DNA of 64,000 nucleotides from a halophilic archaeon (GTDB lineage Archaea > Halobacteriota > Halobacteria > Halobacteriales > Haladaptataceae): assembly GCA_003298465.1 (NCBI GenBank), contig QNGA01000005.1, positions 248,001 through 312,000 on the forward strand, given 5' to 3'. The notes beneath the pieces are model-generated. The model worked only from the letters and a program-made list of their open reading frames with translations. It did no database searches and was not told the origin of the DNA. The translations under genes and the position numbers were made by a program. Positions 3,718-21,574 of the stretch are shown here, in pieces; positions within the stretch are counted from its first letter, which is position 1, and every line of letters starts with the position of its first letter.

Positions 3718-4959
3718 TCACTGATCTTTACATGAGTGGTTGGTATCCTCGTTTTCACTGTTTTCAGGAGTTGGTTCAGGATAGAGTGGGATCTGGTAGG
3801 TTACTTTCTCTTGTTCACTACCGATGGTGTACGATACAGTGGCGGTCAGGAGGTGTGGAGCATTGTCTGCGAAGGGTAGTCGTACAACGGTCCATGATAC
3901 TGATTCGGAGGAACCGGTCTCCACCGTGTCAACGCTCGTTTTTCCTTTCGGGAGGACCTTTACACCTGAGTTGTTCGGAGGCGTGAGGGTAACATCGACT
4001 GAGGTTAACGTTGAGGATGAGCTATTGGAGATCGATGCTTCGAGGTTCGTTGTGCGATCCTTGGTTGTCAACTGGTCGCCATTGAACGTGACCACCGAGG
4101 CGGGAGTGGGGAGCGGGTCGTACCAGATGTTGCGGTACTGGACGGGGCGGCCGTGATTCTGGAGCTGCAGCGGCATTTCGGGAGGATGTGGGCTGTATTC
4201 GGGAAGAGCTTTGTAAGGTGTCGACCCATGAACCACCGTTTTGCTCTGGACGAGAATGTCATTCCAGTAAACGGTCACGATCCCTGGGGATTCTACGTCT
4301 CCATTGTCTTTGAATCGCGGCGCGCGCCAGATGATGTCGTATGATTGCCATTCACCAGGGGGTCTCGCAGCGTTGACCAGCGGCGGATGCTCGCCGTAGA
4401 GCGCGCCTGCCATGCCGTCGGCATAGGTCGGGTTCTCATAGCTATTTAACACCTGGATTTCGTAATTGCTGGCGAGCCATACGCCACTGTTCCCCGGCCC
4501 TTGGCCACTTCCGCTGGTGTCCGACGGAATTCTCCATTCGACATGATAATGGGCGTCACCGATGGCCTCTTTCGATTGAAGCCAATCACCATTTACCTCG
4601 GCATACTTCTCAGTGACATTCCATTCAGGTGGGCTTCCATCTGGACTCTCCCAATCGTCGAGGGAGATTTCACCATTCGAGCCATCTCCCAGTAATACAG
4701 TTGCGTCCGCTGGGGGTTCACTGAACGTGGGCTCACCAGGATCGACAGTGGGAGGTTGGGGGCGACATGCGTCCCCAAATCGCCAGCCTGACCACGGCTG
4801 AACAGGCGTGTCATTAAATCCTGGTCCGTCACACGTTTCAGGATACTGTTCGGCATCGCCGTTGTGGTCTGCGGTAGCCGGGACAGCAAACCCGCTAGCC
4901 ATCGCCAATCCTGCTGCACTCAGTATCGATCTCCGTGATACTTTGTTATTATCCACCAT
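3718..4959 (-). CDS. Tat-exported DUF1080 (3-keto-disaccharide hydrolase) protein
   Basis: The product is 413 residues. It starts with a Tat signal (SRRSILSAAGLAMASG, residues 8-23, cleavage near ATADH), so a folded protein is exported. Residues of about 82-290 form a DUF1080/3-keto-disaccharide hydrolase domain, a concanavalin-like fold. Signature stretches are GNSGVWLASNYEIQVLNSYE, RPPGEWQSYDIIWRAPRF and LQLQNHGRPVQYRNIWYDPL. Residues of about 292-395 form an Ig-like NEW3-type domain, perhaps for surface attachment. Members of this family are known to act on glycosides oxidised at C3; the substrate here is unknown. It heads a cluster with PQQ sugar dehydrogenases and TIM-barrel isomerases, and its promoter region is separated from the neighbour by about 200 bases. 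Confidence 0.85.
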   Translation of the reverse strand: MVDNNKVSRRSILSAAGLAMASGFAVPATADHNGDAEQYPETCDGPGFNDTPVQPWSGWRFGDACRPQPPTVDPGEPTFSEPPADATVLLGDGSNGEISLDDWESPDGSPPEWNVTEKYAEVNGDWLQSKEAIGDAHYHVEWRIPSDTSGSGQGPGNSGVWLASNYEIQVLNSYENPTYADGMAGALYGEHPPLVNAARPPGEWQSYDIIWRAPRFKDNGDVESPGIVTVYWNDILVQSKTVVHGSTPYKALPEYSPHPPEMPLQLQNHGRPVQYRNIWYDPLPTPASVVTFNGDQLTTKDRTTNLEASISNSSSSTLTSVDVTLTPPNNSGVKVLPKGKTSVDTVETGSSESVSWTVVRLPFADNAPHLLTATVSYTIGSEQEKVTYQIPLYPEPTPENSENEDTNHSCKDQ

Positions 4960-5161
4960 AACACTCAGATTTATTCCTTCCTAAATATATAAAACTTGCC
5001 CCACCAACGTATATTTCCTATAATTTTAGATCTGCTACAAATGGAAGATGAAACCACAACATCGTTTGGAATACCGAGCAGCAACTTAGCTGGTTACTTT
5101 CTACAACGAGAAAGGAGAAGTACTCGCTTGAAATATTCTCAACTACTTTGTGCTGTGTAAC

Positions 5162-6013
5162 TCAGTCTACATACTGTTCAAGCGTCTCATAAGCCTTTTT
5201 GGCGGCCAAATCAGGGGAATTGGGATAGGTATACAATTCTATAGTTGCAAATCCACTATAATTAATTTCCTCAAGAGATTTAAAAATTGATTCAAAGTTC
5301 AAATCTCCATCACCAGGAATACGGTGATAGTGTTTGCCTCGTCGACCGCCGACAATGTCTTCTACATGGATCCCAGTAATATGACCGGCACATTGGCGGA
5401 TACTGGTAGCTGGATCTTCTCCATAAACGGCTGCATGACCGATGTCGAGGTTGACCCCCAACGAATCACGTCCGATGTCCTCAATAAGTGTCAAGACCTC
5501 GTCGGTGCACTCAACTAGTAGTTCAGGCTCAAATTCAATGCCAACTGTGACCCCCGCTGATTCTGCATAATCCAAGATCTCATGGAGAGAGTCGATTAGA
5601 TACTCTCGAGCCTGTTCTGGCAAGGTACCTGGGAGTGGACGACCGGTTGCAATGCAGACCGATGGCGCACCGACTGCAGCGGCAAGATCAATGGCCTGCT
5701 TCGTATAATTAATCCGCCAGGTACGATCATCGTCGTCTGCAGTAATGATTGTCGGATCGAAAAACGATGAAGCTGGAGCGTCGTCGTAGTAGCCTTCAGC
5801 GGTGTTTGCGTTGATATTGGATACTGCAATTCCTGTCTCATTGATGACTCTTTCAAGTGCTTTTAGATCCTCGTCATCGAACTCCGGCAAAAACGCGTGG
5901 GGGGTATCGGCTAGCAGTTCGACTCCATTGTACCCGTGATCTGCAATATGTTGGACAGCCTTCGGAAGTTCCATCCGTGTGTAGGCGTTCGTGGAGAAGG
6001 CAAGTTGAACCAT
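5162..6013 (-). CDS. Cytoplasmic sugar phosphate isomerase/epimerase-type TIM barrel
   Basis: This 283-residue protein of the AP-endonuclease-2/xylose-isomerase-like superfamily has no signal peptide. Likely metal ligands are visible: the Glu in GIEFEPELLVE, Asp and His in NLDIGHAAVYGED, His in GIHVEDI and Glu in FATIELYTY. It is a paralogue of the 25500-26375 product, sharing the GH-x4-GE and HxEDI patterns. Family members isomerise, epimerise or cleave sugars and keto-sugars, and the exact reaction cannot be read from sequence. It lies between the DUF1080 gene and a TnpB relic on the same strand as the former, about 200 bases away, so separate transcription is likely. Confidence 0.85.
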   Translation of the reverse strand: MVQLAFSTNAYTRMELPKAVQHIADHGYNGVELLADTPHAFLPEFDDEDLKALERVINETGIAVSNINANTAEGYYDDAPASSFFDPTIITADDDDRTWRINYTKQAIDLAAAVGAPSVCIATGRPLPGTLPEQAREYLIDSLHEILDYAESAGVTVGIEFEPELLVECTDEVLTLIEDIGRDSLGVNLDIGHAAVYGEDPATSIRQCAGHITGIHVEDIVGGRRGKHYHRIPGDGDLNFESIFKSLEEINYSGFATIELYTYPNSPDLAAKKAYETLEQYVD

Positions 6014-6173
6014 ATGCGATGATTATGCTCTAGAATAAAATCCCTTACTCCTACTCACTCGTCTTTGACATCTCTATTACTCCCTCAAAGATTGACTTCG
6101 ATCTAAGAGTCGCGGTCGGACTTCACCCTCGCTGAGTACAAACTGTCCTGACGTACTGGTGGAAAACATCTAG

Positions 6174-6391
6174 CAAGTGCGTACCGTCTGGAATGGCGAC
6201 CGCTGGGACCTACATCTCGTCTGCAAAAAAGAAATTCCCGTCGAGGACGGCGTTGAGAGGAGTTGGCACAGGCGGGAGTCTGCCTGTTCGACCCGAGATC
6301 GGACGGTTTACACCGAGAGAACTGGCCGACTGCAAACCCTAATATCCCACCGTTCGGATTTCTTCCGTCTTTAGACGGAGGTGGATGTTAA
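6174..6391 (+). pseudogene. Internally deleted TnpB plus right end
   Basis: The minus-adjacent plus frame reads VRTVWNGDRWDLHLVCKKE and IPVED, matching residues of about 162-185 of the 34865 TnpB. It then jumps directly to sequence matching that protein's last 20 residues in another frame. The right-end hairpin follows (CTTCCGTCTTTAGACGGAGG, ending GTGGATGTTAA). About 200 codons have been deleted. The 5' part is missing too. Confidence 0.75.
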
Positions 6392-6970
6392 GTGTCGGCT
6401 CACTACGCTTTTTCTATCTGGGTTCCTCGGTGTGCTCTTCGAGGAACTTCGCATGGTTGTACGCGACCGCAAGTTCTAGATTCCTTACTTTCGTCTGGGC
6501 GTTCGTGTTCGAGATGTTTCTCTTCACTTTTTGTTCTCGATCTCAGAATTAACCCGGTATTTCTACACACAAAACGTAAATCCGCTTCGAGGGACCCATT
6601 ACAGTTCTATACTTGTAATAGCATCAGGGAAATTCTTGCCAATCATTACCAGAGTTAGCTATATTTTGTATATCGTCAAAATATATTCTTAAATATGACT
6701 AATCTCTTGTATTATAATCGTGCTATTTCATATTTGCAATTACTGGTTGTTATGGAATACAGAACAACATTTCCGTTACAAGAGTAGGGTGGAAAAGAGA
6801 GAATAATGAGTTGAGAGCTACTAATAGATGATACAGCTAATATAAGATATAAACAGCAAAGGAGATAGATGATTATAATGTACTGACATGCAGAACAGAC
6901 ACTTGAAGCAAAGAAGAACAGAAATCTTTTAAGCAGTGCTAAGACCATGACGATGCGCGATCCCAACAAA
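6392..6970. other. AT-rich intergenic stretch
   Basis: No gene is supported here. The open frame on the minus strand at 6712-6969 is a low-complexity hydrophobic stretch in AT-rich DNA. The imperfect palindrome GTTGTT...AACAAC (6746-6767) contains the half-site ATACAGAAC, which also occurs near the IclR gene. Confidence 0.4.
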
Positions 6971-7290: not shown

Positions 7291-7633
7291 CATCCGAACA
7301 TCGGATATCACCTGCTTCGGACGATACCCTGTCTCACCGAAGGAATGGCAGCTCTTCGGCAATTACCTTACCCAGATAATTACTCCGAAAAGCACAGAAT
7401 AATAATGTATTCAATACGGCGAGAATAATCTGTAAACCTGCTCTCAAACCAAATCGGAGATCGAACAATAGTACAGGGTGTGTCTCACACCGAATATGTA
7501 CTATACCGGGGTGATAGGCAGGTCTCATCCATCACAGCCAATTTCACGTAGTTATTTTAAGTAGCTACTACCTCTCCAACTCAATTTGGACGGAAAATTT
7601 TCGGAACGAGGGACTTCCCTGGATGATCGCCGG

Positions 7634-8608
7634 TCAGGGACTGTAGAGTTTGGCGGGATGGGTGTCTGCGCCTTCGATGGCACCGATGCCGCCGGGTTGC
7701 CAGGGCTGGTTCAGTTTCTCAAGCCAATCGGCTCCGATCTGCATTGACTCAAGAGGATTCTCCGGTGCGTCGTGCTCAAAGACGAGATAGTCGGTGTCTC
7801 CGGTGTTGCGGAAGGCCGTCGCCACCGCACGCATATTGACGTCGCCTTCGTGAATCTCGGTGAATTCCTGGGGATCGACAGTCATATTCTTCATATGGAG
7901 TGATCTAACGTTTGTCGAGTGATCCACTGTGAAGCTGATTGGATCCCGGCCGCCGACAAGTGCCCAACCGACATCGAGTTGGATCTGGACTTGGTTATCG
8001 AGATTCTCGGCGAAGATGTCGTAGCCAGTCGTGTCGCCAATTTCGGCGAACTCGGCATCGTGATTATGATGCCCGAACTCGAGGTCGTACTCGGCCAGCA
8101 TGTCCGCCGCCGCGTTACACCGCTCGGCGAAGTCAATAACCGCAGCTTCGTTGCCCCAATCGTCGGGACCAGAACCTGGGTCGATGAGGGTAGGTGTACC
8201 GAACTGCGAGAAAGTTTTGCCCATCGCCTCAGTGTTGTCTTCGACGGCGCTGATGCTGATGTGGGCGCTGCTCATCTCGAGACCAGTGTCGTCCATTGCC
8301 CGAAGGATCGGGTTCACGTTAGTATTGGCGCCGACTGAATAAGGCTCGAAAGCATCGTAGCCAGCGTCGGCGGCCTTCTGGATCAGCTCCGGTACCGAGA
8401 GGCCAGTGTCACGGTACGAGTAGAACTGCGTGGAGATGGGAATGTCTTCGTTTGTCTCCTGGGCCGCGACGGTTGTCTCTGCCTGCCAGGCAGTGGACGT
8501 GATCGTAGTGCCCACGCCGGCTGCACCAATCCCCTGAAGGACTCGCCGACGATTCATGCTGAAGCGCTCGTTATCTGTACTGGTTTGATCGTCTGATTTC
8601 TGTGCCAT
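7634..8608 (-). CDS. Tat-exported sugar phosphate isomerase/epimerase-type TIM barrel
   Basis: The product is 324 residues. A Tat signal (MNRRRVLQGIGAAGVGTT, starting near residue 18) precedes an AP-endonuclease-2-type TIM barrel from about residue 55. Metal-site motifs are HHNHDAEF, LDVGWALVGGRDP, SLHMKNM and FEHD. It is close to the exported protein at 14807-15730. Export of this fold is notable because the classical relatives act on phosphorylated sugars in the cytoplasm, so the substrate here is more likely a free or 3-keto sugar. It is divergent from the PQQ dehydrogenase at 9482, with a TnpB relic sitting in the shared upstream region. Confidence 0.88.
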   Translation of the reverse strand: MAQKSDDQTSTDNERFSMNRRRVLQGIGAAGVGTTITSTAWQAETTVAAQETNEDIPISTQFYSYRDTGLSVPELIQKAADAGYDAFEPYSVGANTNVNPILRAMDDTGLEMSSAHISISAVEDNTEAMGKTFSQFGTPTLIDPGSGPDDWGNEAAVIDFAERCNAAADMLAEYDLEFGHHNHDAEFAEIGDTTGYDIFAENLDNQVQIQLDVGWALVGGRDPISFTVDHSTNVRSLHMKNMTVDPQEFTEIHEGDVNMRAVATAFRNTGDTDYLVFEHDAPENPLESMQIGADWLEKLNQPWQPGGIGAIEGADTHPAKLYSP

Positions 8609-8724: not shown

Positions 8725-9400
8725 TGACAAACATGAGGATGATTTCACGCCCTAGGGTGTGGCCCCGGGATTCCGTGGATTAGTTGGACACTCTCACACG
8801 ACCATCGGCCTGATAGTCTCAGGGAGTAGGGTAGGTCACGGTTGGGGTCCAAGTTCTCTGATGTCTGCCATCGCACCTTCCTCACGGTAGGGAGGCTGTT
8901 GAGAGCAGGCACAGTCCTCCCTTGATGCTTTCTGATACCTTTCACGGCGATGTTGACGCTTGCATCACGGTCGCTGTGGGCTTGATGCACGCACGACCGA
9001 TACTTGCACCGCTTCTTGTTACGATTCACATGCTCCGTATGCCTGCACATCGGGCATCGTTGACTCGTGTACTCGGGATTAGTCCACGTAGTCGGAATCC
9101 CTCTGAACGACGCCTTGTATCATGTGTCGTGTTGGAGCGTACGGAAGGGCAGCTGGTGCAATCGTCGATTCATCTGCGTGCCGTAGTTGATACTGTCATG
9201 CATCTCTTTGAGGTCTTCAAAACGATGCACGGCGTCACGAACTGACGGGTCCGCTCCATACTGGCCAACTGACTTTGTAGAGGCGGTCACGGACGAACTG
9301 TTGCTCACGCCCTTCCAGTGTGTCGTGGATACTCAGCTTCCCCGCATTCTGCACCCGTTTCCGCGTGTGAAGTAGCGATGCGTTCGAACTTGATTTCCGG
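8725..9400 (-). pseudogene. TnpB relic between two cluster genes
   Basis: On the minus strand two frames give parts of one TnpB: YGADPSVRDAVHRFEDLKEM (about 9260-9200) and MCRHTEHVNRNKKRCKYRSC with HSDRDASVNIAVKGI (9050-8935), the latter being the zinc ribbon and RuvC-III. They are in different frames, and the N-terminal half is missing. The right end is near 8725-8775 (GTGAAATCATCC outward). The relic ends about 80 bases before the start of the 9482 gene, whose signal peptide is missing. Confidence 0.75.
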
Positions 9401-9481: not shown

Positions 9482-12202
9482 TTGTGGAATAGTAACATGA
9501 TACAACTCGAAGCGATAGACGTTCAAGAAGATAAGGAAAACCAAGCTAGCCCACCGGCTCATGCGAAAGGAAAGAAGAAGAAACAAACTGGTCCACCGGC
9601 TCACGCGAATAACCCGAGTCACGCGTGGCAAGGTGTCGCACCAGCGGGAATCAAAGACAAAAAGAATCCGACTCTGGAACTGGTCGCAGGCCAAGAGCAC
9701 ACCATCAAATGGACGAACAAAGACGGGGATCCCCATAATTTCGTGATTGAGGATGCCAATGGCAAAAAACTCCTCAAGAGTAAGGTACGACCGAAGAAAG
9801 GTGCGACTCAGACTGTGGAGTTCACTGCAACCGAAGAGATGGCCGAATACTACTGCCAGCCCCACAAACACGATATGCGGGGCACCATCAAGGTGGGGAC
9901 AGCCTCGGCCAACTTTAAGGTAAGTGACCTCAATCCCACAAAGCTAACTATCGAACAGGGTGACTCTCTCGATGTCTCCGCAACGATCACTAACAGCGGT
10001 GGCATCGAAGGCACACAGGAAATCACCCTCGTCATCGGCAATGAAACCGTCGCCTCAAAAGACGTTACCCTCGCTGCGGACGATAGCACCACTGTCGCTT
10101 TCGAAGCCATCGATACAAGTGGACTTGACCCGGGCGAGTACACTCACACCGTTGCTACCGAAGATAGCGAAGCTAGTGGAACCCTGTTCGTTGAGGAGAA
10201 TATACCTTGGAATCGCGACCTTGAGGTGTCAAGAAACCCGAAGAAGGCTACCAACTGGGACAATTACAACGTCAGTACTGCCCTTGCGAGGGGCGACATC
10301 GCAAGCCAGTACGACCTCCAAGACGGCGAGGAAGGCGAATGGATGCAGATGGCCGTCGACCCCCAGGACCGTATCTGGGTCATCACCCGTGGGGCCCCCT
10401 TCGTCAGCGAAGGTGACGGCTACGCCGAGGTCGCCTGGGTCGATCCCAACTCCGGCGAGCACCAACTCGCCCTCGAAATCCCAGTCTCCTTCCACGGCGG
10501 ACACATCGCCGAACCACACTACGCCGGGGAAGCGTCTGCCGCCCGTGAACTCGGCGGACAGGGGATCGCGATCGATCCCAACTTCGAGGAAAACGGCTAC
10601 GTCTACATTATGTACCATCCTTCGAGCGAGAACTTGGAGGAGGTTGACAATCCCTACCACGACGAGATTTTCTATGCTAACACGCTCGTCTCCCGGTTCG
10701 AGATGGCTGACGACGGCACCCTCGACCCTGACTCTGAGAAGGTCGTCTTCAAGGTTCCTGAGCAGTACAACACCTGCTGTCACCACGGCTGCTACATCAC
10801 CTTCGGTGAGAACCGCGAATTCTACATCTCGACCGGCGACAACTCCAACAACGTGGGACATCCCACTCACGACTGGCCACCTGACGATACTGTCAACGGG
10901 TTACCCGGGGGCACTGTCGACACGTACATGGGCGACGAGCGCCAAGGGATCGTCGGCGGGCGACCAGGTCCGGTCGCCGACGCCCAGCGCAGTTCGGGTA
11001 ACACGGCCGACAAGCGTGGAAAGGTCCACCGGATCATCCTCAACGAGGACGGCAGCTACGATATCCCCAACGGCAACCTCAAAGAGCACTGGGAAGCGGA
11101 GACCGGCGAGTCCTACTCCGACGAAGAGTTCCTGCCAGAGATCTACGTGATGGGACTGCGCAATCCGTTCACGATCACTCTCGACGAGCACACTGGCCAC
11201 CTTTGGACCGCCAACTACGGCAACGACGCTGAGGGACACAGCGTACTCGGCATGCCGGGCTTTGGGAGCTACCACCTGTGGTCCAAGCCGGGTAACGTCG
11301 GCTATCCGTGGTTCCGGGCCTACTACCCCTACCGTGACTACGACTTCAAGACTGATGAGGTCGGCCAGCCGTTCTGGCCTGACAACCTCCGCAACGACTC
11401 GGTGAACAACACCGGTATCACGAACATCCCTAACGTCACCCCGGCGCTTCTCTGGCACCCCCAGAGCTTCGAGAGTTTAGCGAATGCTACCGGGGTCCAT
11501 CCGTGGCTGGATCAGCCTCGCCCTGGCGAGACGACCTATCCCGAATTCGAGCCTGGCGGCTCGGCGGACGTCGGGGTGGTCTACCGTTACTCCGAGGATT
11601 ATGGCCAGGGGGCGCTTGATCCCTTCTTCGACGGTAAGACGTTCATCATGCGACCGAGTAACTCGGACGTCACTCGGTATGTCACCTTGAACGACGACGG
11701 TAGCCTTGAGATGAATGAGTTCCTCCCTAACGACGACACCATTTCTGCTGCCTACGACATGAAAGTCCTCTCTGACGGCCGGCTGGTTATCATGGGCATG
11801 TACTCCGGCATCCACGTTGTCGAGTATCAGTCTTCCGGCGGGGACTCCCCGCCGGGAGACGATGACCCGCCAAAGGAGGCGATCGAACCGGGGACGACGA
11901 TCAAACTCAATGGCGTGATCTCTGGCTGGGAGGGGAACGCGCCCGACGGAATCAGCGGTCAGACGAACCCGACGCTCACGCTTCAGGAGGGTGGAGAGTA
12001 TACCGTCACGTGGACGAACGGCGACGGGTCGCCTCACGATTTCGCTCTCCAGGACGCTAATGACAACAACATTAAGAAGACCGATATCGTGTCAGAAAAA
12101 GGTGCTACCGTATCGCTGACGTTCACCGCTTCCACGGAGATGGTCGAGTATGTCTGCACCGTCCACCCAGGAACGATGGCGGGCACTGTTGAAGTAGTCT
12201 AA
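9482..12202 (+). CDS. Cupredoxin-CARDB-PQQ sugar dehydrogenase-cupredoxin fusion, signal peptide lost
   Basis: The 906-residue frame starts at TTG 9482; ATG 9497 is an alternative, and there is a stop at 9458-9460. Residues 47-140 are a plastocyanin-like domain with copper ligands His85, Cys125, His128 and Met132. Residues 142-240 are CARDB-like. Residues 250-785 are a soluble PQQ sugar-dehydrogenase beta-propeller, with CCHHGCYITFG (432-442) around the likely catalytic His and GLRNPF (558-563) around the PQQ-binding Arg. Residues 805-906 are a second cupredoxin (His852, Cys892, His895, Met899). It should oxidise a sugar and pass electrons to copper. The paralogue at 15953 has a Tat signal and about 50 further N-terminal residues. 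Here they are absent and a TnpB relic lies just upstream, so the protein may be trapped in the cytoplasm or unexpressed. Confidence 0.85.
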   Translation: MWNSNMIQLEAIDVQEDKENQASPPAHAKGKKKKQTGPPAHANNPSHAWQGVAPAGIKDKKNPTLELVAGQEHTIKWTNKDGDPHNFVIEDANGKKLLKSKVRPKKGATQTVEFTATEEMAEYYCQPHKHDMRGTIKVGTASANFKVSDLNPTKLTIEQGDSLDVSATITNSGGIEGTQEITLVIGNETVASKDVTLAADDSTTVAFEAIDTSGLDPGEYTHTVATEDSEASGTLFVEENIPWNRDLEVSRNPKKATNWDNYNVSTALARGDIASQYDLQDGEEGEWMQMAVDPQDRIWVITRGAPFVSEGDGYAEVAWVDPNSGEHQLALEIPVSFHGGHIAEPHYAGEASAARELGGQGIAIDPNFEENGYVYIMYHPSSENLEEVDNPYHDEIFYANTLVSRFEMADDGTLDPDSEKVVFKVPEQYNTCCHHGCYITFGENREFYISTGDNSNNVGHPTHDWPPDDTVNGLPGGTVDTYMGDERQGIVGGRPGPVADAQRSSGNTADKRGKVHRIILNEDGSYDIPNGNLKEHWEAETGESYSDEEFLPEIYVMGLRNPFTITLDEHTGHLWTANYGNDAEGHSVLGMPGFGSYHLWSKPGNVGYPWFRAYYPYRDYDFKTDEVGQPFWPDNLRNDSVNNTGITNIPNVTPALLWHPQSFESLANATGVHPWLDQPRPGETTYPEFEPGGSADVGVVYRYSEDYGQGALDPFFDGKTFIMRPSNSDVTRYVTLNDDGSLEMNEFLPNDDTISAAYDMKVLSDGRLVIMGMYSGIHVVEYQSSGGDSPPGDDDPPKEAIEPGTTIKLNGVISGWEGNAPDGISGQTNPTLTLQEGGEYTVTWTNGDGSPHDFALQDANDNNIKKTDIVSEKGATVSLTFTASTEMVEYVCTVHPGTMAGTVEVV

Positions 12203-12525
12203 CCGGGTAGGGTACACTACCTGGCCTTGAATTTACAGTATTTGGAACCGGGCGAAGTTACGCTAGCATACTCGTAGCCGTCGTAGATCTGATTTATTTA
12301 CTATTTGTCGTTACTGTCCACTGCTCGTTGAGCAGTTAGCGAGTGTAGGAACGTGTTGTCAGGTCGAGGGACGCTCTTAAACACGGGTTTTTGTATCCAC
12401 AAATAAGATATTGATTCCAGAATAAGCAATAAAGAATATTATAGAAACACTTATTAATTAAGTACGTGATGATATCAAGTAGCACTCTACCGATAGATCG
12501 AGTGCTCCACTAGAGGAGAAAATGT
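12203..12525. other. Intergenic region upstream of tandem DUF1080 gene
   Basis: The region becomes AT-rich after 12400 and probably carries the promoter of the 12526 gene (TTATTAATTAAG near 12450). No gene is visible. A CCAGAATAAG half-site near 12417 resembles the motif discussed at 14241. Confidence 0.3.
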
Positions 12526-14061
12526 ATGAGCGACCCAAATAAAAAAGAAGAAAATAACGCGTGTAGTAAAGCAGCAAACCGACGAAAATTTCTCCAAGGA
12601 ATTGGTACTATTGGCTTAGGAAGTTCTTTCGTTGGGCTCGGACAGGCCACAAAGGATCGGTCCAATAGGAAGAGCTCCGGAAACAAAACGAATGAAACTC
12701 GACCGCGCCGCGTTGTGCCAGGTGCCGAAGGACTCAGCGCAGACCCACCGTCGGACGCAACAATCCTGTGGGACGGTGAAGAGGCCTCTCTCGACGATTG
12801 GCAGCACTATCCCGACGGTCGTGATGCTGAATGGATTGAGCACGACGATTACTTCAAGGTCAATCTCGGAACCGGCGACATTCAACCCAAAGAAGCAATC
12901 GGTGACTGTCACCTCCACCTTGAGTGGCGAGTTCCCGAAGGTTTAGAGGGAGAAAGTCAGGGACCAGGAAATAGTGGTCTCTTCATGATGGAAACGTACG
13001 AGTTCCAGATACTCCAGAGCTACGAGAACCCCACCTACCCAAGCGGTCATGCCGGATCGTACTATAAGTACAAGCCAGGCGGCGGCAGCGCGCCGCTAGT
13101 TCTCCCAATCCGTCCACCGGGTGAGTGGCAGGAGTACGACCTCATCTGGCGCGGTCCACGCTTCGAGGATGGAGAACTCGTACGCTATCCCCAGGCGACG
13201 CTCTTTTTCAACGGCGTGGCCGTCCAAACCCACCTCGATATTCCGGGCCCCGTCTGGTATGATACGCTGTACGATTTCGATCACGAGGACTTCGGCCATC
13301 CCCGGGACAGCGATGGGACATTCCTCGAGGAGGTCCCCTTCAATCTGCAGGATCACGGCCGCAGTCAGGACGTGGTGCACTTCCGGAATATCTGGTATCG
13401 TGATCTACCCGAAGACCCCGTCGAGATAGACAATCCCGACGCAATGCCCCAGTATGACAGTTCCGGCGGCGACTACGAGATGCCCGAGCAGGTCGGGCCC
13501 GGCGGCGTAGGAACGACCGGCGATGCGCCAGAAGACGCTGATGTGTTGATCGACGACGAGCTGACCCTCGAGCCAGGAGACGATGACTGGGAGAGCGATA
13601 ACAAGTACGGCGATGCGCAGTTCCACGTTGAATACCGCATCCCCGCGGACGTTAAGGGGCATGGCATAGACCGGGGTAACAGCGGCGTCTTGATGATGGG
13701 CAAGTACGAGATCCAGATCGTCGACATGCGCTCCTACCGCAACGACGACGCCGAGGAGTGGGCCGGCGCCTTCACGGACCAAGCCGAACCCCATCACGAC
13801 GCTGTCCGCGAACCCCGTGAGTGGCAACAACTCGATATCCTTTGGCAGGGCCCGCGCTTTGACGGTGACGAGGTTGTGCCGGCACAAGTGACAGCGTTAC
13901 TCAACGGTGTCGCAGTCCAGACGCGGCTCTTAGCCGATGGTCCGAACGCCGACGGTACGCTTGCCGAGTATGAGGAGCATGCGTCCGAACTGCCGCTTCG
14001 CCTCCAAGAGGACAACAGCCGGGTAAAGTTCCGCAACACTTGGGCGCGTTCGCTCGACTAA
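12526..14061 (+). CDS. Tat-exported protein with two DUF1080 (3-keto-disaccharide hydrolase) domains
   Basis: The product is 511 residues. The Tat signal NRRKFLQGIGTIGLGSSF lies at residues 18-35. Domain 1 covers about 75-305 (GNSGLFMMETYEFQILQSYE, RPPGEWQEYDLIWRGPRF, FRNIWYRDLP). Domain 2 covers about 335-510 (GNSGVLMMGKYEIQI, REPREWQQLDILWQGPRF, FRNTWARSLD). Both keep the family's typical patterns, so both may be active, possibly on different linkages or as a substrate-binding module plus a catalytic one. Domain 1 is most like the single-domain protein at 3718. The gene lies on the same strand as the two PQQ dehydrogenases. Confidence 0.88.
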   Translation: MSDPNKKEENNACSKAANRRKFLQGIGTIGLGSSFVGLGQATKDRSNRKSSGNKTNETRPRRVVPGAEGLSADPPSDATILWDGEEASLDDWQHYPDGRDAEWIEHDDYFKVNLGTGDIQPKEAIGDCHLHLEWRVPEGLEGESQGPGNSGLFMMETYEFQILQSYENPTYPSGHAGSYYKYKPGGGSAPLVLPIRPPGEWQEYDLIWRGPRFEDGELVRYPQATLFFNGVAVQTHLDIPGPVWYDTLYDFDHEDFGHPRDSDGTFLEEVPFNLQDHGRSQDVVHFRNIWYRDLPEDPVEIDNPDAMPQYDSSGGDYEMPEQVGPGGVGTTGDAPEDADVLIDDELTLEPGDDDWESDNKYGDAQFHVEYRIPADVKGHGIDRGNSGVLMMGKYEIQIVDMRSYRNDDAEEWAGAFTDQAEPHHDAVREPREWQQLDILWQGPRFDGDEVVPAQVTALLNGVAVQTRLLADGPNADGTLAEYEEHASELPLRLQEDNSRVKFRNTWARSLD

Positions 14062-14806: not shown

Positions 14807-15730
14807 ATGAACGGTTTAGATAAAACGGATATGGGAGAGAACGGTGCTAGTAATCAAACGACGTCTACTGTGAACCGACGAAAGGTTCTCCAAGGGTTGG
14901 GTGCCGTTGGGCTTAGTACCGCCTTTGTCGGACTTGGACAAGCCAAAACGAAAGGCTCTGAGGAAATTCCCACCTCCACCCAGTTCTGGACGTACAACAA
15001 TTCAGATCTCTCTGTTGCGGAGTTAATTTACGAATCTAGCGATGCCGGATACGATACCGTCGAACCCTATTATATCGACGACAAAAGCGCAGTCGCAACT
15101 GCACTTGAGGAAACGGGTCTACAATTTTCCAGTGCTCATGTTGGACTGGGAGATCTGCAAGAGAACTTTACGGAGACTATCCAGACCTACTCTAAGTTCG
15201 GCGCTGATGCACTGATTCACCCGTATGAAGGCAATGAAGCGTGGAATAGCAAGGAAGCTGTTATTGACTGGGCCGAGACAGTCAACGAAATGGCTGACAG
15301 GGTAGCTGCCGAAGGAATGGAGTTTGGCTACCACAATCACGCTCATGAATTCAAAAAATTCGGTGATAGATTTGGCTACGACATCTTTGCCGAGCATGTC
15401 AACGACAATGTTCACCTCCAGCTGGACGTAGGGTGGGTCCTTGTCGGCGGCGCAGACCCAGTTGCAGTCCTTAATAGACATAGTGATCAGATTAAGTCGC
15501 TCCACATGAAAGATATGAAGGTTAGCGACGATGAGTCTGACTTCGTCGAAATTGGTGAGGGAGACGTCAACATGGAGGCTGTCGCCAACGTTGCTCGTGA
15601 TGCGGCCGATATCGATTATCTCATCTATGAGTATGACGGAGCGCCCAATCCTCTGGAATCGCTCAACTACGGCGCTAAATATCTTGAAACATGGAACGGA
15701 CCGCGACATCGAAATTGGAATAGTAAGTGA
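14807..15730 (+). CDS. Tat-exported sugar phosphate isomerase/epimerase-type TIM barrel
   Basis: The product is 307 residues with a Tat signal (VNRRKVLQGLGAVGLSTAF, residues 23-41) nearly identical to that of the upstream tandem DUF1080 protein. A TIM barrel follows with metal-site motifs GYHNHAHEF, LDVGWVLVGGADP, SLHMKDM and YEYDGAPNPL. It is a paralogue of the 7634-8608 product. It probably acts on a sugar or keto-sugar outside the membrane, since the classical relatives are cytoplasmic. Neighbours on the same strand are the DUF1080 protein and the ThuA-PQQ fusion, about 220 bases downstream. Confidence 0.88.
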   Translation: MNGLDKTDMGENGASNQTTSTVNRRKVLQGLGAVGLSTAFVGLGQAKTKGSEEIPTSTQFWTYNNSDLSVAELIYESSDAGYDTVEPYYIDDKSAVATALEETGLQFSSAHVGLGDLQENFTETIQTYSKFGADALIHPYEGNEAWNSKEAVIDWAETVNEMADRVAAEGMEFGYHNHAHEFKKFGDRFGYDIFAEHVNDNVHLQLDVGWVLVGGADPVAVLNRHSDQIKSLHMKDMKVSDDESDFVEIGEGDVNMEAVANVARDAADIDYLIYEYDGAPNPLESLNYGAKYLETWNGPRHRNWNSK

Positions 15731-15952: not shown

Positions 15953-18900
15953 ATGGCAAATAGCGAACAATCAGCCGATAGAAAGAACAGAGAGAATAGT
16001 GAATCAGCGCCGCTTACTACTAGCAGACGGCGATTAATGCAGGTTGCTGGCGGAGTTGGTGCAGGTAGCCTTATCAGCAATAGTACAGGCGTTGCGCAGA
16101 AGGCCACTGATGACAATGTAATCAGACTTAAAGCGGCCAAAGTTAAACCAAATAATACAAGCCAACAGAGCCATCCGAAAAACGAAAAGAGTCGAGGTCC
16201 CCCCAACCACGCAAATAAGCCAGAACATACGTGGATAGGGGTCGAACCAGAGAAGATTGCAGGTCAGAGGAATCCAACTCTCTCGCTGGTTGCAGGTGAA
16301 CAGTATACGGTCGAGTGGACGAATACTGACGGACGTCCCCATAACCTTACTATTGAGGATACCAGTGGCAAGAAAGTCTTCTCAACTAAGGTCCAACCCA
16401 AGAAGGGGACGACACAAACTGTGGAATTCACTGCGACCGAAGAGATGGCCGAATACTACTGCCAGCCCCACAAGCACGATATGCGGGGTACCATTCAAGT
16501 CGGCAAGAAACCGTCCTTAGAAGTAAATATCCTGGTGTTCTCGGCAACGGCAGGCTACCGTCACAAAAACATTGAATATGGCGTCCAACAGCTCCGGGCA
16601 CTCAAGGATCGCATTGCCACCGAAACTGGCGCTGACTCTGTGACTATTGAGACGATACCTCAAGACGCCTCCGCATTCCCCTCGAACGCCAGCGACCTCG
16701 AACAGTACGACACCATTGTTTGGTTCAACACCACAGGGGATGTTCTTAACGCTGACCAACAGGCCGCATTCGAGCAGTATATCCAGAACGGCGGCGGTTA
16801 CACTGGAATCCACGCAGCGGCTGACACTGAGTATGATTGGAGCTTCTACGGCGATATGCTTGGTGGTGCCTACTTCGCCGACCATCCTGCCGTCCAGGAG
16901 GCCGAAGTTCACGTCACCGACAAAACCCATCCCTCGACTGAACACCTCCCAGATCGATGGACGGCCACCGATGAGTGGTACGACTACGCCGAAAATCCCC
17001 GCGGTGACGTCCACGTCCTCGCATCCGTCGACGAAGACAGCTACACCGGCGCAACGATGTCGCGCTCCGACCATCCGATAGCCTGGTGCCGCAAATATCG
17101 TGGTGGGCGCGCCTGGTATACCGGCCGTGGCCATACTGAAGATGCATTCGACGAGGATGCCTTCCTCGAACATGTCCTCGGCGGCATTCTTTGGTCTGGC
17201 GGATTTGTCGAAGGGGATGCATCTGGCACTGTTTGGTCCAGCTACCAGAAGACACAGCTGACATCCGACGTGTCTGAACCGATGAAGATGGACATGACGC
17301 CCGATGGTAGACTCTTCTACACCGAGCGTGCAACGGGCAAGGTCGGTGTCATCCATCCAGATTCGGACGATGTTACAACAGCACTTACCCTCGACGTCTA
17401 CTCCGAACAGGAAGATGGTCTCCAGGGGATCGCCTTCGATCCCAACTTCGAGGAGAACAGCTGGGTTTATCTCTACTATGCACCGCCGATGGACGTTGTC
17501 GGTGACCAACCTTACAACGTATTATCACGGTTCAAGGTGGATGGAGACACTATCAATCCCGACACTGAAACTGAGATCCTCCGTGTTCCTACTCAGCGTG
17601 AAACGTGCTGTCACGTTGGTGGCGCTATCGAATTTGGCTCAGAGGGTAAGGAACTCTACCTCTCAACAGGCGACGATACCAACCCGTTCGCATCCAGTGG
17701 TTACACACCAATCGACGAACGATCTGGTACATGGCCAGAGGATAGCGATAATGCTGGAATTCCATATGCATACTGGGACGCCCAGCGGACGGCCGGCAAC
17801 ACTAATGACCTCCGGGGTAGCATCCTGCGGATCATCCCTCAGGATGACGGATCGTATGAAATCCCCGATGGAAATCTCTTCACTGGCGATGAGTACGCCC
17901 AAGCGCGTAAAAATGGATTAGTGCGTGAAGAGATCTACGTGATGGGCTGTCGCAACCCATTTACACTCACGGTCGACGACGAAACTGGATTACTGTATTA
18001 CGCCGACTACGGTCCTGACTCGGGGTCCTGGAGCGCCGATCGCGGTCCGCCTGGTATCGTCGAGTTCAGAGTGGTGAACGAAGCCCAATATGCGGGGTGG
18101 CCGTACGTCCGCGGCCCGAATATTCCCTATGTCGATTATAATTTCGCAACAGGGGAGTCGGGCGATCCATTCGACCCTGAGAACCCTGTCAATACCTCTC
18201 CGAATAATGACGGACTCGAGGAATTGCCGCCGGTCACTGAGTCGACAATCTACTACCCGAAAGGCTGGGACGAACTTATCAACAACGTCCCCGCGTATGC
18301 ACAAGAGTTCGTCCCCGACCAAAACCCATGGCCGTCTCTTCCCCCAGGTGGTGCTCCGACGTCAGGGCCAGTCTATCAGGCTGGAGATGGCGGTGCTGAG
18401 GGTGCTCTTCCTCAGTCCTTCGACGGTAAATGGTTCACTATGGAGTGGGGAGCGGACTGGCTTAAGTACATTACGTTCGACAAGGACGGAAATGTGCTTG
18501 AAGTCGCACCGTTCCTACCCAACTACAACTATAATGGACCGATGGATCTCACGGTCGGACCAGATGGAGTGTTGTATCTTATGGAATACGGGGAAGGCTT
18601 CTTCGGTGGGACAAACCCCGGCATCTACCGAATCGATCACCTAGCAGGACTGTTGGGAGCCGATGCACTCTCGTTCACTCTCGACAGTAGTGAGTTGGCG
18701 CCCGGAGAGTCGACGACAGCAACTACAACACTCACGAATCTAAGCAACAATACGATAAAGGACGTTCAGTTCACGCTGACCGCTGACAGCGATCAGATTC
18801 AGATCAGTGCCCCGGATCAGACGAGTTTCGATTCGTTGGCCCCCGGCGAAGCGCAATCAGTCGAGTGGCAAGTGACTGCCACTGAAGAGATAACAGAAGG

Positions 18901-19354
18901 TGAATACAGCCTAATTCCGCAGGTCACATACACCCAGAGCGGTAATAAGGATCAACTTCAGCAGAGCGCCTCATTAGCGGTCACCGCATCGGATGGCGGT
19001 GGCGGTGGTGGCAGTGGAGCCATCGACCCAGCCACCACGATCCAACTTGATGGGTTTATAGATGGTTGGGAAGGGACGGCACCTGACTCGCTTGCTGGCA
19101 AGACGAACCCGACACTCACGCTTCAGGAAGGTGGCGAGTACACCGTCACGTGGACGAACGGTGACGGGGCGCCCCACGATTTCGCCCTTCAGGACGCCGA
19201 TGGCAACAACCTTGCTAAGACTGATATTGTGTCAGAAGAAGGTGCTACTACTTCATTGACATTCGTTGCTTCGGCAGAAATGGTCCAGTACGTCTGCACT
19301 GTTCACCCGAACGCGATGGTGGGCGACATTGAGGTGACATCCTCCTCGCCGTAA
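15953..19354 (+). CDS. Tat-exported cupredoxin-ThuA-PQQ sugar dehydrogenase-NEW3-cupredoxin fusion
   Basis: The product is 1133 residues. Tat signal: SRRRLMQVAGGVGAG (24-38). Cupredoxin 1: about 92-183 (His130, Cys170, His173, Met177). ThuA domain: about 191-415 (GGYTGIHAAADTEYDW, GRGHTEDAF). PQQ propeller: about 425-895 (CCHVGGAIEFG at 552-562, GCRNPF at 665-670). NEW3-type domain: about 905-1012. Gly-rich linker, then cupredoxin 2: about 1027-1128 (His1075, Cys1115, His1118, Met1122). ThuA is known from rhizobial trehalose use through 3-keto derivatives, and PQQ propellers oxidise sugars. The inferred role is extracytoplasmic sugar oxidation with built-in copper electron carriers. The last codons (TSSSP and stop) lie inside an IS1341-type right end, so the native C-terminus was replaced. 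Confidence 0.9.
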   Translation: MANSEQSADRKNRENSESAPLTTSRRRLMQVAGGVGAGSLISNSTGVAQKATDDNVIRLKAAKVKPNNTSQQSHPKNEKSRGPPNHANKPEHTWIGVEPEKIAGQRNPTLSLVAGEQYTVEWTNTDGRPHNLTIEDTSGKKVFSTKVQPKKGTTQTVEFTATEEMAEYYCQPHKHDMRGTIQVGKKPSLEVNILVFSATAGYRHKNIEYGVQQLRALKDRIATETGADSVTIETIPQDASAFPSNASDLEQYDTIVWFNTTGDVLNADQQAAFEQYIQNGGGYTGIHAAADTEYDWSFYGDMLGGAYFADHPAVQEAEVHVTDKTHPSTEHLPDRWTATDEWYDYAENPRGDVHVLASVDEDSYTGATMSRSDHPIAWCRKYRGGRAWYTGRGHTEDAFDEDAFLEHVLGGILWSGGFVEGDASGTVWSSYQKTQLTSDVSEPMKMDMTPDGRLFYTERATGKVGVIHPDSDDVTTALTLDVYSEQEDGLQGIAFDPNFEENSWVYLYYAPPMDVVGDQPYNVLSRFKVDGDTINPDTETEILRVPTQRETCCHVGGAIEFGSEGKELYLSTGDDTNPFASSGYTPIDERSGTWPEDSDNAGIPYAYWDAQRTAGNTNDLRGSILRIIPQDDGSYEIPDGNLFTGDEYAQARKNGLVREEIYVMGCRNPFTLTVDDETGLLYYADYGPDSGSWSADRGPPGIVEFRVVNEAQYAGWPYVRGPNIPYVDYNFATGESGDPFDPENPVNTSPNNDGLEELPPVTESTIYYPKGWDELINNVPAYAQEFVPDQNPWPSLPPGGAPTSGPVYQAGDGGAEGALPQSFDGKWFTMEWGADWLKYITFDKDGNVLEVAPFLPNYNYNGPMDLTVGPDGVLYLMEYGEGFFGGTNPGIYRIDHLAGLLGADALSFTLDSSELAPGESTTATTTLTNLSNNTIKDVQFTLTADSDQIQISAPDQTSFDSLAPGEAQSVEWQVTATEEITEGEYSLIPQVTYTQSGNKDQLQQSASLAVTASDGGGGGGSGAIDPATTIQLDGFIDGWEGTAPDSLAGKTNPTLTLQEGGEYTVTWTNGDGAPHDFALQDADGNNLAKTDIVSEEGATTSLTFVASAEMVQYVCTVHPNAMVGDIEVTSSSP

Positions 19355-19690
19355 ACGGCGAGGCTTCCCCTGCTTGGGGAATACCAGTCAGTCGTCGCTG
19401 GTAGAGGGTTCGACTCTCGAAACGCCGTGAGCGTCATCTGCGAGGCGTTCTCGCTCGTCTCACGGTGAGCCGTGGCAGTGTCACAACTACGCCCATCCCG
19501 AGACGAGTCATCGCGTCCGGCCTTGTCAAGCGGGACACTCTCTCCCCACGGGTCACCCGTCGTGCGATATTCGCAGAAGCGTTGATGTCGGCCTGAAATG
19601 TCGAAACGTGGCAGTCGTCGCCCGGGCACCAAAACTCGGCCTGCTCCGCCTGTAGACTTCTAGTGTTCAATATCCGATCGAACCATAATA
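19334..19690 (-). pseudogene. TnpB C-terminal relic with right end
   Basis: The right end starts at 19334 (GTGACATCCTCCTCGCCG with hairpin CCTCGCCGTAAACGGCGAGG) and overlaps the end of the 15953 gene. Upstream on the minus strand the frame at 19670-19434 reads AEFWCPGDDCHVSTFQADIN and ASANIARRV, a TnpB zinc ribbon and RuvC-III. The rest of tnpB is gone. 19691-19819 is AT-rich promoter DNA for the oxidase, with TAGATATATAATAG near 19750. Confidence 0.75.
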
Positions 19691-19819
19691 TTAAATAATT
19701 CCTACCCTAAAGTAGGATTGTGGGTTAGAATGACAAGCAAGAACTATACTAGATATATAATAGATGCAGAAAAGTACAAAGCACTCTTAGCCAGCAACAT
19801 TAGCAGGGAATGATTAATC

Positions 19820-21574
19820 ATGGATAAAATAACTAGACGTCGTTTGCTCAAAGCTAGTGCATCGCTGGGAATAGCCGGAGCAATACCTCAGACCTCAAGC
19901 AGGGTAGCTGCCCAATCATCTCCTAGCCTTGAGAAATATATACAGCCACTACCGATTCCAGAGGCTAGAGAACCAGACAGTGAACAGCATGGCGTTGATT
20001 CTTACCAGATTCCGCTGACGGAGTTCACACAAAATCTCCATCCAGACCTTCCCGATACGACGCTTTGGGGCTTCGACGGTGTGTATCCAGGGCCACTTAT
20101 TGAGGGTCAACGGAACCAGCGTATGCGAGTCCAATTCGACAATAGTCAGCTTCCGACAAACCATCTCTTAGAAGTTGATAAGCGGATCGGTGGAACAACA
20201 GCTGAGAACCACCCTGGGTACGAGAAATCAGTCCCTGTCCCAGAAGTCCGGACGGTAACTCATTTTCATGGGCTTAAGGTCGACCCCGAAAACGATGGTC
20301 AAGCGGATATGTGGTCGTCTCCCAGCGGTGTTGTAGGACCGCGCTTTACCAATGATTGGCAAGAACTCCCAATGCGCCAATCGAGGTTAACATCGACATA
20401 TCATGACCACACACTTGGCATCGTTCGGCTAAACGCCTATGCCGGGCTAGTCGGCATGTATTCTATCCGGAGTCAAAAGGAGGAGAAGCTTAACTTGCCA
20501 AGTGGTGAGTACGATATACCTCTCCTTCTACAGGATAAGTCATTTAATTCGGATGGCTCGCTAGATTATCCCGATTCCTGGACTCCGATGTTTGCTGGCG
20601 ATACTGCGGTCATTAACGGAGCAGTATGGCCATATCTTGAGGTTGAACCCCGACGATATCGTTTCCGGATAGTAAACGGTGCGAACCATCGAACGTTCAG
20701 TCTTCAACTTCGTAACGAATCTAGTCAGGGTATCCCAACACTACATCAGTTCGCACCGGACCATGGATTTTTGGAGTCGGTTGTTCCAATTGGCCCTGCT
20801 GGGGATCTTGATTCGCTCGTTCTACAGCCGTTTGAGCGTGGAGAAGTTATTGTTGACTTCTCTAAGCATGCAGGTGAAACATTCACACTTACTAACAACG
20901 CTGAGTTACCGTACGTAGGCGAAAACTCAGGTAGTGGTCTCGGGGAACTGATGCAGATTCGGGTTACTGACCCAGATGAAACTCCGGTAGACACCAGTGC
21001 AAATCCTACGAACTTGAAGCTTCCTTCCCCCAAGAAATTAAGCAAGAATGCAGCAGTCAAAACCCGCGAAATGGATCTTGACTTGACGGTGAATGATGGA
21101 TTAGTCACGTATCAACTGAATGGGTACGGATTTGGCGCGGAAGAGGCAGTTGTCCAGCCACAGCTCGGAACAACTGAAATTTGGGAACTGAAAAATAACA
21201 CGAATGGTTCACACCCAATCCATCTTCATCTAGTCACTTTCAGAGTAATTGGGCGTGGACCGGATGGAACTGATACTCCTGATCCAAATGAACAAGGTCA
21301 TAAAGATACTGTTCGAGTTGAGCCGGGTGAAACAGTGAGAATTCTCACACGATTTGATCGTTATACTGGCCAATTTCCCTGGCACTGCCATATGCTTGAG
21401 CATGAGGATAACAAAATGATGCTTCGGTTTGAGGTAACATCCGGAAATGGACAAGGGAAAGGAAATGGACGACAATCTCCTGGACAAGGACACGGAAAAG
21501 GAAATGGACAGCAACCCCCCGGGCACGGACGAAGTCGTGGGCGTGAGTCCTCTGGACGAGACCCCAAACAGTGA
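19820..21574 (+). CDS. Tat-exported multicopper oxidase (laccase/CotA-like)
   Basis: The product is 584 residues. Tat signal: TRRRLLKASASLGIAG (5-20). All four copper-binding segments are present: HFHG (148-151), YHDH (194-197), HPIHLH (465-470) and HCHMLEHEDNKMM (522-534), so three cupredoxin domains with type 1 and trinuclear copper are expected. The length without the tail fits CotA/bilirubin-oxidase-type enzymes. Residues 543-584 are a Gly/Gln/Lys/Arg-rich low-complexity tail that is absent from the usual enzymes. The reaction is oxidation of a donor with reduction of oxygen to water at the cell surface. In this cluster it could be the terminal acceptor for the cupredoxin-bearing sugar dehydrogenases. 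A TnpB relic follows its stop directly. Confidence 0.9.
   Translation: MDKITRRRLLKASASLGIAGAIPQTSSRVAAQSSPSLEKYIQPLPIPEAREPDSEQHGVDSYQIPLTEFTQNLHPDLPDTTLWGFDGVYPGPLIEGQRNQRMRVQFDNSQLPTNHLLEVDKRIGGTTAENHPGYEKSVPVPEVRTVTHFHGLKVDPENDGQADMWSSPSGVVGPRFTNDWQELPMRQSRLTSTYHDHTLGIVRLNAYAGLVGMYSIRSQKEEKLNLPSGEYDIPLLLQDKSFNSDGSLDYPDSWTPMFAGDTAVINGAVWPYLEVEPRRYRFRIVNGANHRTFSLQLRNESSQGIPTLHQFAPDHGFLESVVPIGPAGDLDSLVLQPFERGEVIVDFSKHAGETFTLTNNAELPYVGENSGSGLGELMQIRVTDPDETPVDTSANPTNLKLPSPKKLSKNAAVKTREMDLDLTVNDGLVTYQLNGYGFGAEEAVVQPQLGTTEIWELKNNTNGSHPIHLHLVTFRVIGRGPDGTDTPDPNEQGHKDTVRVEPGETVRILTRFDRYTGQFPWHCHMLEHEDNKMMLRFEVTSGNGQGKGNGRQSPGQGHGKGNGQQPPGHGRSRGRESSGRDPKQ

Follow-up and report, generated by a model that had tools for sequence, protein, structure and literature searches.

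Gene content of the locus

The stretch of DNA considered here, referred to as the window, comprises 64,000 nucleotides from a halophilic archaeon of the Haladaptataceae (contig QNGA01000005.1, positions 248,001 to 312,000), and the system in question is a group of eight genes at positions 3718 to 21574 that may encode a largely exported machinery for the oxidative cleavage of glycosides. The open reading frames (ORFs) and Pfam domains of this range match those listed in an initial annotation, with named-family scores above the curated Pfam cut-offs, such that two DUF1080 proteins, two exported and one cytoplasmic TIM barrels, two GSDH propellers fused to cupredoxins and one multicopper oxidase (MCO) were all confirmed. 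A twin-arginine translocation (Tat) motif is recognised by pattern match in six of the eight proteins (those starting at 3718, 7634, 12526, 14807, 15953 and 19820), which agrees with the claim that most of them carry Tat signals, and, in line with the description, TIM barrel 5162 is cytoplasmic. In what follows the proteins are named by their first coordinate.

The Tat-exported protein encoded at 15953..19354 (+) is a fusion in which, from its Pfam matches, a cupredoxin (about 16232-16504) is followed by ThuA (PF06283; 16526-17194), the GSDH propeller (about 17273-18652), NEW3 and a C-terminal cupredoxin (about 19058-19336). Its nearest protein is found in Halomicrococcus sp. NG-SE-24, also of the Haladaptataceae, at 97% over the searched region. 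The second propeller protein, at 9482..12202 (+), has a cupredoxin (about 9641-9895), a GSDH propeller (about 10541-11881) and a further cupredoxin, with PF00127 and PF07995 each matched in two stretches. The Tat-exported MCO at 19820..21574 (+; PF07731, PF07732) retains the full set of usual copper-ligand motifs for the T1, T2 and T3 sites, namely HFHG, HDHT, HPIHLH and HCHMLEHEDNKM.

Of the two DUF1080 proteins, both Tat-exported by motif, the one at 3718..4959 (-) has a single domain and a weak C-terminal NEW3-like match, and the one at 12526..14061 (+) carries the domain in tandem (two stretches; PDB 4qhz, E=3e-44). They score 111.4 and 165.8 bits, respectively, against a PF06439 cut-off of 26.8, with nearly the whole domain covered, and are predicted members of the 3-keto-disaccharide hydrolase family. 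The three TIM barrels belong to AP_endonuc_2 (PF01261). The barrel at 5162..6013 (-) is epimerase-like, with sub-cut-off matches to keto-gluconate/fructoselysine epimerase models and 79% to positions 11352-12203 of a relative locus, L001. The other two, at 7634..8608 (-) and 14807..15730 (+), are Tat-exported; the best PDB match is 8bvk for the former, and 8tct followed by 8bvk for the latter.

We take 8bvk to be AtOGE, the O-glycoside beta-eliminase of Agrobacterium, because the residue numbers of the chain fit those of the published enzyme, whose metal ligands are H132, D163, H189 and E233 and whose catalytic residue is H134 (PMC10628242). When aligned to 8bvk, both exported barrels keep all five residues, as H181, H183, D212, H238 and E278 in the 7634 protein and as H176, H178, D207, H233 and E275 in the 14807 protein, and AtOGE Glu161 (E161) is replaced by Gln in both. 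This supports the view that they carry a 3-keto-glycoside beta-eliminase active site, making them putative eliminases, with the 7634 protein a putative beta-eliminase/hydratase.

Conservation, fusion and co-occurrence

The same families recur together in other haloarchaea. On a plasmid of Haladaptatus pallidirubidus six of the eight genes (5162, 7634, 9482, 12526, 15953 and 19820) are found at 79-92% identity within 29 kb; no separate counterpart of DUF1080 3718 or of TIM barrel 14807 occurs in the plasmid stretch that was read. On a Natronococcus plasmid the relatives are rearranged or fused, such that an exported TIM barrel and a tandem DUF1080 form one protein, the MCO bears a cupredoxin and another protein is a DUF1080-GSDH.

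Fusions in several combinations came up in a survey of 21 regions around DUF1080 genes from 11 haloarchaeal genomes, eight with and three without window-type GSDH, the latter defined as a match to the GSDH of the window at E<=1e-60. Single ORFs encode cupredoxin-GSDH-DUF1080 in G001, G004, G028 and G272, DUF1080-GSDH-cupredoxin in G002 and G216, TIM-DUF1080 in G001, G234, G271 (the Natronococcus genome already seen through its plasmid locus) and G272, and TIM-ThuA-GSDH-cupredoxin in G272. Among the best 120 of 1934 homologues of the ThuA-GSDH core, precomputed Pfam matches place DUF1080 on 10 chains, PF00127 on 22, AP_endonuc_2 on two and an MCO on one. This last, P0031, is a single MCO-ThuA-GSDH-malectin-cupredoxin chain with a Tat-like N-terminus, and on its basis electrons could plausibly pass via the fused cupredoxins to the MCO. 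The possibility that bacterial relatives have a fused cytochrome c, replaced here by copper, was considered and dropped, as the motif CxxCH occurs in none of these 120.

Co-occurrence was counted in 292 genomes of the class to which G002 belongs; since G002 carries the Haladaptatus locus L007, this class was taken as Halobacteria. The plain Pfam families are too common to serve as a test, with ThuA over cut-off in 194/292 and GSDH in 275/292, and therefore the specific GSDH type was used. DUF1080 is rare, being over cut-off in 11/292 genomes, as is window-type GSDH, in 10/292; DUF1080 is found in 8/10 genomes with window-type GSDH and 3/282 without (Fisher p=6e-12, uncorrected for kinship), and leaving aside G001, G002 and G004, genomes that came to attention by way of loci, in 5/7 versus 3/282 (p=7e-8). 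DUF1080 does not always stand beside GSDH, a candidate rule excluded by G128, G166 and G172, which have no window-type GSDH, and by G234, where the two lie on different contigs. Taken together, the fusions and the co-occurrence support the view that the families form one functional unit.

The propeller and its cofactor

The initial annotation took the two propellers to be pyrroloquinoline quinone (PQQ) dehydrogenases, which raises the question of what these domains share with the known quinoproteins. An AlphaFold2 (AF2) model of the GSDH part of the 15953 protein has a pLDDT of 90.4, and its best Foldseek matches are soluble PQQ glucose dehydrogenase (sGDH) and enzymes of the aldose sugar dehydrogenase (Asd) type, with the hedgehog-interacting protein (HHIP) also among the structural neighbours. 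For a comparison of residues, the two window domains and 118 homologues (120 sequences in all) were set against a canonical group made up of 11 proteins from haloarchaea and YliI of E. coli. The residues matching sGDH H144, D163, R228 and N229, which we take to be the catalytic residues of the quinoprotein site, are invariant in 120/120. An R-x-R near the C-terminus, presumably the contact to the PQQ carboxylate, has its second Arg in 0/120 and its first in 69/120, as against both in 12/12 of the canonical relatives, and this place reads GPM and AAY in the two window domains. Directly before the catalytic His there is a Cys-Cys pair in 96/120 (17606-17614 in the window, residues 552-554 of the 15953-19354 protein), and this vicinal pair may form a disulfide with redox activity or bind a metal.

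In the 292 haloarchaea PqqC never exceeds its cut-off, and a single weak match reaches 19.4 bits; as a control, among 20 genomes with window-type GSDH it is over cut-off in three, all of them among the 16 bacteria, and in 0/4 haloarchaea. For PqqE only over-cut-off matches were counted, because other radical S-adenosylmethionine (SAM) proteins match everywhere, and these occur in 0/12 DUF1080-carrying haloarchaea and 2/3 bacteria. Its residues set the propeller apart from canonical PQQ enzymes, and PQQ synthesis is probably beyond the host. The assignment of PQQ as cofactor is thus not borne out: it is not established and looks doubtful, with scavenging possible.

The ebo-like partner cluster

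The most surprising part of the locus, new here and unseen in the initial annotation, is an adjoining cluster that resembles the ebo genes. At 21736-26375 a phosphodiesterase, an inositol-phosphate synthase, a TatD protein and a TIM barrel lie side by side. The type I phosphodiesterase/nucleotide pyrophosphatase (21736..23067, -; PF01663) is in an EboF-like place, the same that it holds in haloarchaeal ebo-like clusters; a member of the inositol-1-phosphate synthase family (23064..24266, -; PF07994, PF01658) is in the place of EboD; the TatD-family hydrolase (24682..25497, +; PF01026; 88% to L001) and a cytoplasmic TIM barrel (25500..26375, +; PF01261) are in EboB-like and EboE-like places, respectively. 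In relatives this gene set is followed by a UbiA prenyltransferase, for which the best model in L001 is EboC (201.9 of 250 bits, under the NCBIfam cut-off), and by a second TIM barrel. By its similarity, the counterpart of this second barrel in the window is the displaced, lone gene at 5162. No UbiA was found in the window, where relatives have it after the 25500..26375 barrel. Remnants of IS605-type TnpB lie at 1-633, 6107-6251, 8943-9233 and 26401-26640, two of them adjoining the broken cluster ends by 5162 and 25500. Because there are TnpB remnants at both broken ends and UbiA was not found, it is probable that an IS605-type element broke the cluster apart, as if taking UbiA out in the process.

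How tightly is this cluster tied to the propeller? In the haloarchaeal sample such a UbiA (E<=1e-40) occurs in 37/292 genomes, which include 9/10 with window-type GSDH and 28/282 without (p=3e-8), or 6/7 and 28/282 when G001, G002 and G004 are left aside (p=1e-5). Measured from start to start, UbiA and GSDH are 3.8-10 kb apart in six of the nine, and 15, 37 and 62 kb apart in the other three; G111, which has window-type GSDH, lacks such a UbiA. Of 38 UbiA places 20 were read, four of them in genomes with window-type GSDH. An exported cupredoxin-GSDH, a ThuA-DUF7133-cupredoxin or a GSDH protein lies in the 20 kb read in 4/4 of these and 6/16 of the others; among the remainder, L167 holds part of such a protein and nine have none that was recognised. 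The phosphodiesterase, inositol-phosphate synthase, TatD and TIM genes are present in 18/20 of the regions, with L161 and L162 lacking the first two. ThuA-DUF7133-cupredoxin ORFs of 1245-1753 aa adjoin the ebo-like clusters of L170 (2845-8100), L171 (12449-17692) and L174 (2-3733), where they replace, or sit beside, the ThuA-GSDH type.

The tie extends to a second domain of life. A sample of 74 genomes was drawn from the class to which G300 belongs, and as G300 is an Amycolatopsis this class was taken as Actinomycetes. At E<=1e-20 the EboC model matches a UbiA in 12 of them, none over the curated cut-off, and window-type GSDH occurs in 11; all 11 of the latter have the UbiA, as against 1/63 of the rest (G349; p=3e-12), and 9/9 do so without G300 and G329 (p=1e-10). 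The two genes are 4.4-8.2 kb apart in seven of the 11, 1.4 Mb apart in G300 and on different contigs in three. Two actinobacterial UbiA proteins from ThuA-GSDH loci belong to the SCO3242 family, over its cut-off, and the full set of phosphodiesterase, inositol-phosphate synthase, TatD, UbiA and TIM together with a Gfo enzyme is present in 8/75 bacterial ThuA-GSDH loci, an uncontrolled count. G329 and G400 have 13 and 12 window-type GSDH places, respectively, with one UbiA each, and six of the 13 in G329 are on the UbiA contig. With so many propellers to each UbiA, the product seems more likely to be a cofactor or carrier that they share than a single metabolite.

What, then, might the cluster provide? 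In Nostoc, ebo and scyE mutants are both without scytonemin and accumulate its monomer, which is cytoplasmic in the ebo mutants and periplasmic as well in the scyE mutant, from which the authors inferred an export defect (PMC6282210). When membrane fractions were used in enzyme assays, EboC homologues from marine bacteria attached prenyl groups to quinoline acids (PMC9235831). One tentative and rather improbable proposal concerns the large class of exported propeller oxidoreductases that have lost the PQQ clamp: the ebo/SCO3242-type cluster would synthesise for them, or take outward, a new redox cofactor, prenylated and resembling a cyclitol or a quinone, with the scytonemin phenotype as one case of this. 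It is put forward because of the co-occurrence in two domains, the single UbiA per 12-13 propellers, the lost R-x-R, the missing PqqC and the phenotype shared by ebo and ScyE. Two observations weigh against it: the monomer is kept in the cytoplasm of the Nostoc ebo mutants (PMC6282210), and 12/49 bacterial carriers of window-type GSDH have no such UbiA at E<=1e-20, which also tells against the ebo-like tie itself.

The unit exceeds the range to 21574 given in the initial annotation, reaching 26375 with the ebo-like genes and 33378 with an ATP-binding cassette (ABC) transporter of the BMP/PnrA type, composed of a binding protein, an ATPase and two permeases (28347..33378, +; PF02608, PF00005, PF02653 x2). 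A BMP-type transporter is likewise present in the relative loci L001, L002 and L003. Between them lies an IclR-family regulator (27014..27769, -; PF01614), with 62% to the IclR adjoining the ThuA fusion in L001.

A proposed pathway and its alternatives

The domain content, export motifs, fusions, active-site residues of the TIM barrels and the MCO, and co-occurrence are observed directly; that they add up to an extracytoplasmic oxidative glycoside-cleavage system with an ebo-like partner cluster is a reading we hold with evenly balanced confidence. In such a system the two GSDH-type propellers would act outside the cell on a sugar or glycoside and oxidise it, C3 being the likeliest position, with both regiochemistry and substrate presumed, and export of the signal-less 9482 propeller assumed. 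The resulting keto-glycoside would be hydrolysed outside by the exported DUF1080 proteins, and could also be cleaved by the exported metal-dependent TIM barrels through beta-elimination and then hydration. Electrons would pass from the propellers to cupredoxin domains of the same chain, on to the MCO and finally to oxygen, if this is the direction of flow. The freed (keto-)sugar would be imported by the BMP-type ABC transporter and epimerised or reduced inside, in relatives by Gfo/Idh/MocA enzymes, and the ebo-like cluster would probably provide a prenylated compound that serves outside the membrane as carrier or cofactor.

With regard to the Gfo/Idh/MocA enzymes, a tblastn search with three relatives as queries found none in the window. 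The Haladaptatus locus has two such genes, one directly upstream of DUF1080; in Halocatena one lies about 2 kb from a cupredoxin-GSDH; they stand beside GSDH-DUF1080 fusions in G002 and G272; and G166, without window-type GSDH, has two Gfo-like genes at or beside DUF1080. No signal is seen at the three starts that were read, two in Haladaptatus and one in Halocatena. In the Agrobacterium pathway a Gfo enzyme reduces the 3-keto-sugar as the final step (PMC10628242), and by analogy those of the relatives may reduce a 3-keto-sugar inside the cell, or else oxidise. The initial annotation had supposed these enzymes to be replaced, and had named as a refutation one that does the oxidation step in the same locus, outside the window; none was found in the window but they are present in the loci of relatives, so that this point goes half against it.

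Several further points weigh against the proposed system. The 9482 protein has no signal peptide, even when upstream frames are read, and the same is true of the homologues from the two plasmids, of Haladaptatus and of Natronococcus; its absence from the window protein went unmentioned in the initial annotation. The signal-less protein nevertheless has two cupredoxin domains. The Natronococcus homologue sits directly behind a Tat-exported TIM barrel, and as a guess the protein might be exported as the passenger of a Tat-exported neighbour. Known GSDH enzymes oxidise C1, and C3 oxidation is therefore not given by the family; the Gfo/Idh/MocA enzymes in the Haladaptatus locus could do the oxidation. 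To these are added the missing UbiA in the window, the 3/11 DUF1080-carrying haloarchaea without window-type GSDH and the 2/10 with this GSDH and no DUF1080. Among 75 bacterial ThuA-GSDH loci, several of which end at contig ends, DUF1080 is within or near just nine, an uncontrolled count, and an MCO is near none.

Could the cluster instead tailor an exported product? By analogy with scytonemin, the ebo-like cluster would export a metabolite or glycoside, the propellers and copper oxidase would oxidise it and the sugar enzymes would trim its glycoside, without feeding the cell. The tight tie, in archaea and bacteria alike, of window-type GSDH to a UbiA of the EboC/SCO3242 kind speaks for this, as does the similarity of the propeller to the ScyE family, with 7/22 members matched at E<=0.01, although at 22.9 of 80 bits this is far under the family cut-off and too weak alone. 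We consider it unlikely, given surroundings of a catabolic look (the ABC importer, IclR regulators, a mannonate dehydratase, a dihydrodipicolinate synthase (DHDPS)-like enzyme and Gfo enzymes) and the poor fit of 12 or 13 GSDH copies per UbiA to one metabolite.

Quite unlikely, in our estimate, is a locus of two loosely linked activities, in which the GSDH proteins are C1 aldose dehydrogenases working on scavenged PQQ, with cytoplasmic Gfo/Idh/MocA enzymes oxidising C3 and the DUF1080 and TIM proteins using the products. It would accommodate family membership and fold, the Gfo genes of the Haladaptatus locus and those beside DUF1080 in G166, and the case of E. coli, which has the GSDH family member YliI and, as far as is known, makes no PQQ. 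It fits badly with the loss of the second Arg of R-x-R in 120/120, with the lack of a Gfo match in the window and with the single DUF1080-GSDH chains of several haloarchaea, from which oxidation and cleavage likely occur in one place. A non-redox role, in which the propeller would be a sugar- or polymer-binding scaffold comparable to HHIP within an adhesion or polymer-binding apparatus, could draw on the presence of HHIP among the structural neighbours and of malectin, NEW3 and CBM domains on fusions or neighbouring kinds; the invariance of the quinoprotein-site H/D/R/N in 120/120 and the fusion to cupredoxins and an MCO make it very improbable.

With these alternatives weighed, the interpretation offered in the initial annotation is partly supported. 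As genomics, the module with its copper wiring stands on firm ground. For the extracytoplasmic 3-keto-sugar pathway the single, largely exported functional unit and the beta-eliminase sites hold up, whereas C3 oxidation is a deduction, and for the copper route to oxygen the combination of MCO, GSDH and cupredoxin in P0031 makes it plausible, with the direction of electron flow presumed. No description of an archaeal version was found among open-licence PMC papers, mostly judged from search listings.

Relation to known systems

The closest parallels are with bacterial 3-keto-glycoside pathways. In the Caulobacter LacABC-DUF1080 lactose pathway, too, a 3-keto-glycoside is formed and its hydrolysis by DUF1080 proposed, both outside the cytoplasm; there, mutant fitness data were used to argue that DUF1080 works as an exported hydrolase of 3-keto-glycosides, next to a C3 dehydrogenase in the periplasm (PMC9007349). 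The oxidation in Caulobacter is by the membrane-bound lactose 3-dehydrogenase LacABC, whereas the window has a cupredoxin-fused propeller of the GSDH fold, with ThuA and an MCO. The Agrobacterium GlycDH-AtOGE-AtHYD-Gfo operon (PMC10628242) shares the metal-dependent TIM-barrel beta-eliminase with the same ligands, and has Gfo as the final reductase, but uses a flavoenzyme dehydrogenase, and the exported TIM barrels of the window carry Tat signals and have counterparts in relatives that are joined to DUF1080.

With sGDH and Asd the propellers share the fold and the core of catalytic His, Asp and Arg-Asn, and differ in the lost R-x-R, the Cys-Cys before the catalytic His in most and the added ThuA and cupredoxin domains. 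In rhizobia ThuA acts in a 3-keto-sugar context in the cytoplasm, with the Gfo-type ThuB, whereas ThuA in the window is exported and fused to a propeller. The ebo cluster of Nostoc and Bacteroidetes and its actinobacterial SCO3242 form likewise combine TatD, a UbiA-type prenyltransferase, a sugar-phosphate cyclase, a TIM barrel and a phosphodiesterase. The cluster described here differs from it in that the cyclase is inositol-phosphate-synthase-like and not the dehydroquinate (DHQ)-synthase-like EboD, there are two TIM barrels and exported GSDH/cupredoxin neighbours, and the window is without UbiA.

A further exported patch that includes a copper oxidase lies elsewhere in the window: a 1572-aa Tat-exported protein (38980-43698, -) combines an FG-GAP repeat with a multicopper oxidase domain, a CHRD protein (38091-38876) adjoins it and an LVIVD-repeat protein (48822-50090) is nearby. 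A 701-aa ORF at 44079-46184 (+) has no Pfam match, and a TbsP regulator lies at 60130, in keeping with the haloarchaeal origin of the window.

Implications

If the proposed pathway is correct, archaea would possess an external, copper-wired form of glycoside cleavage through C3 oxidation, in which a single chain sometimes unites dehydrogenase and electron carrier with a lyase/hydrolase or an oxygen reductase. PQQ may also not be the cofactor of a large group of proteins that are annotated as PQQ-dependent sugar dehydrogenases. Independent of how the pathway is read, the tie between the propeller and the ebo-like cluster makes it testable what the widely conserved ebo genes produce.

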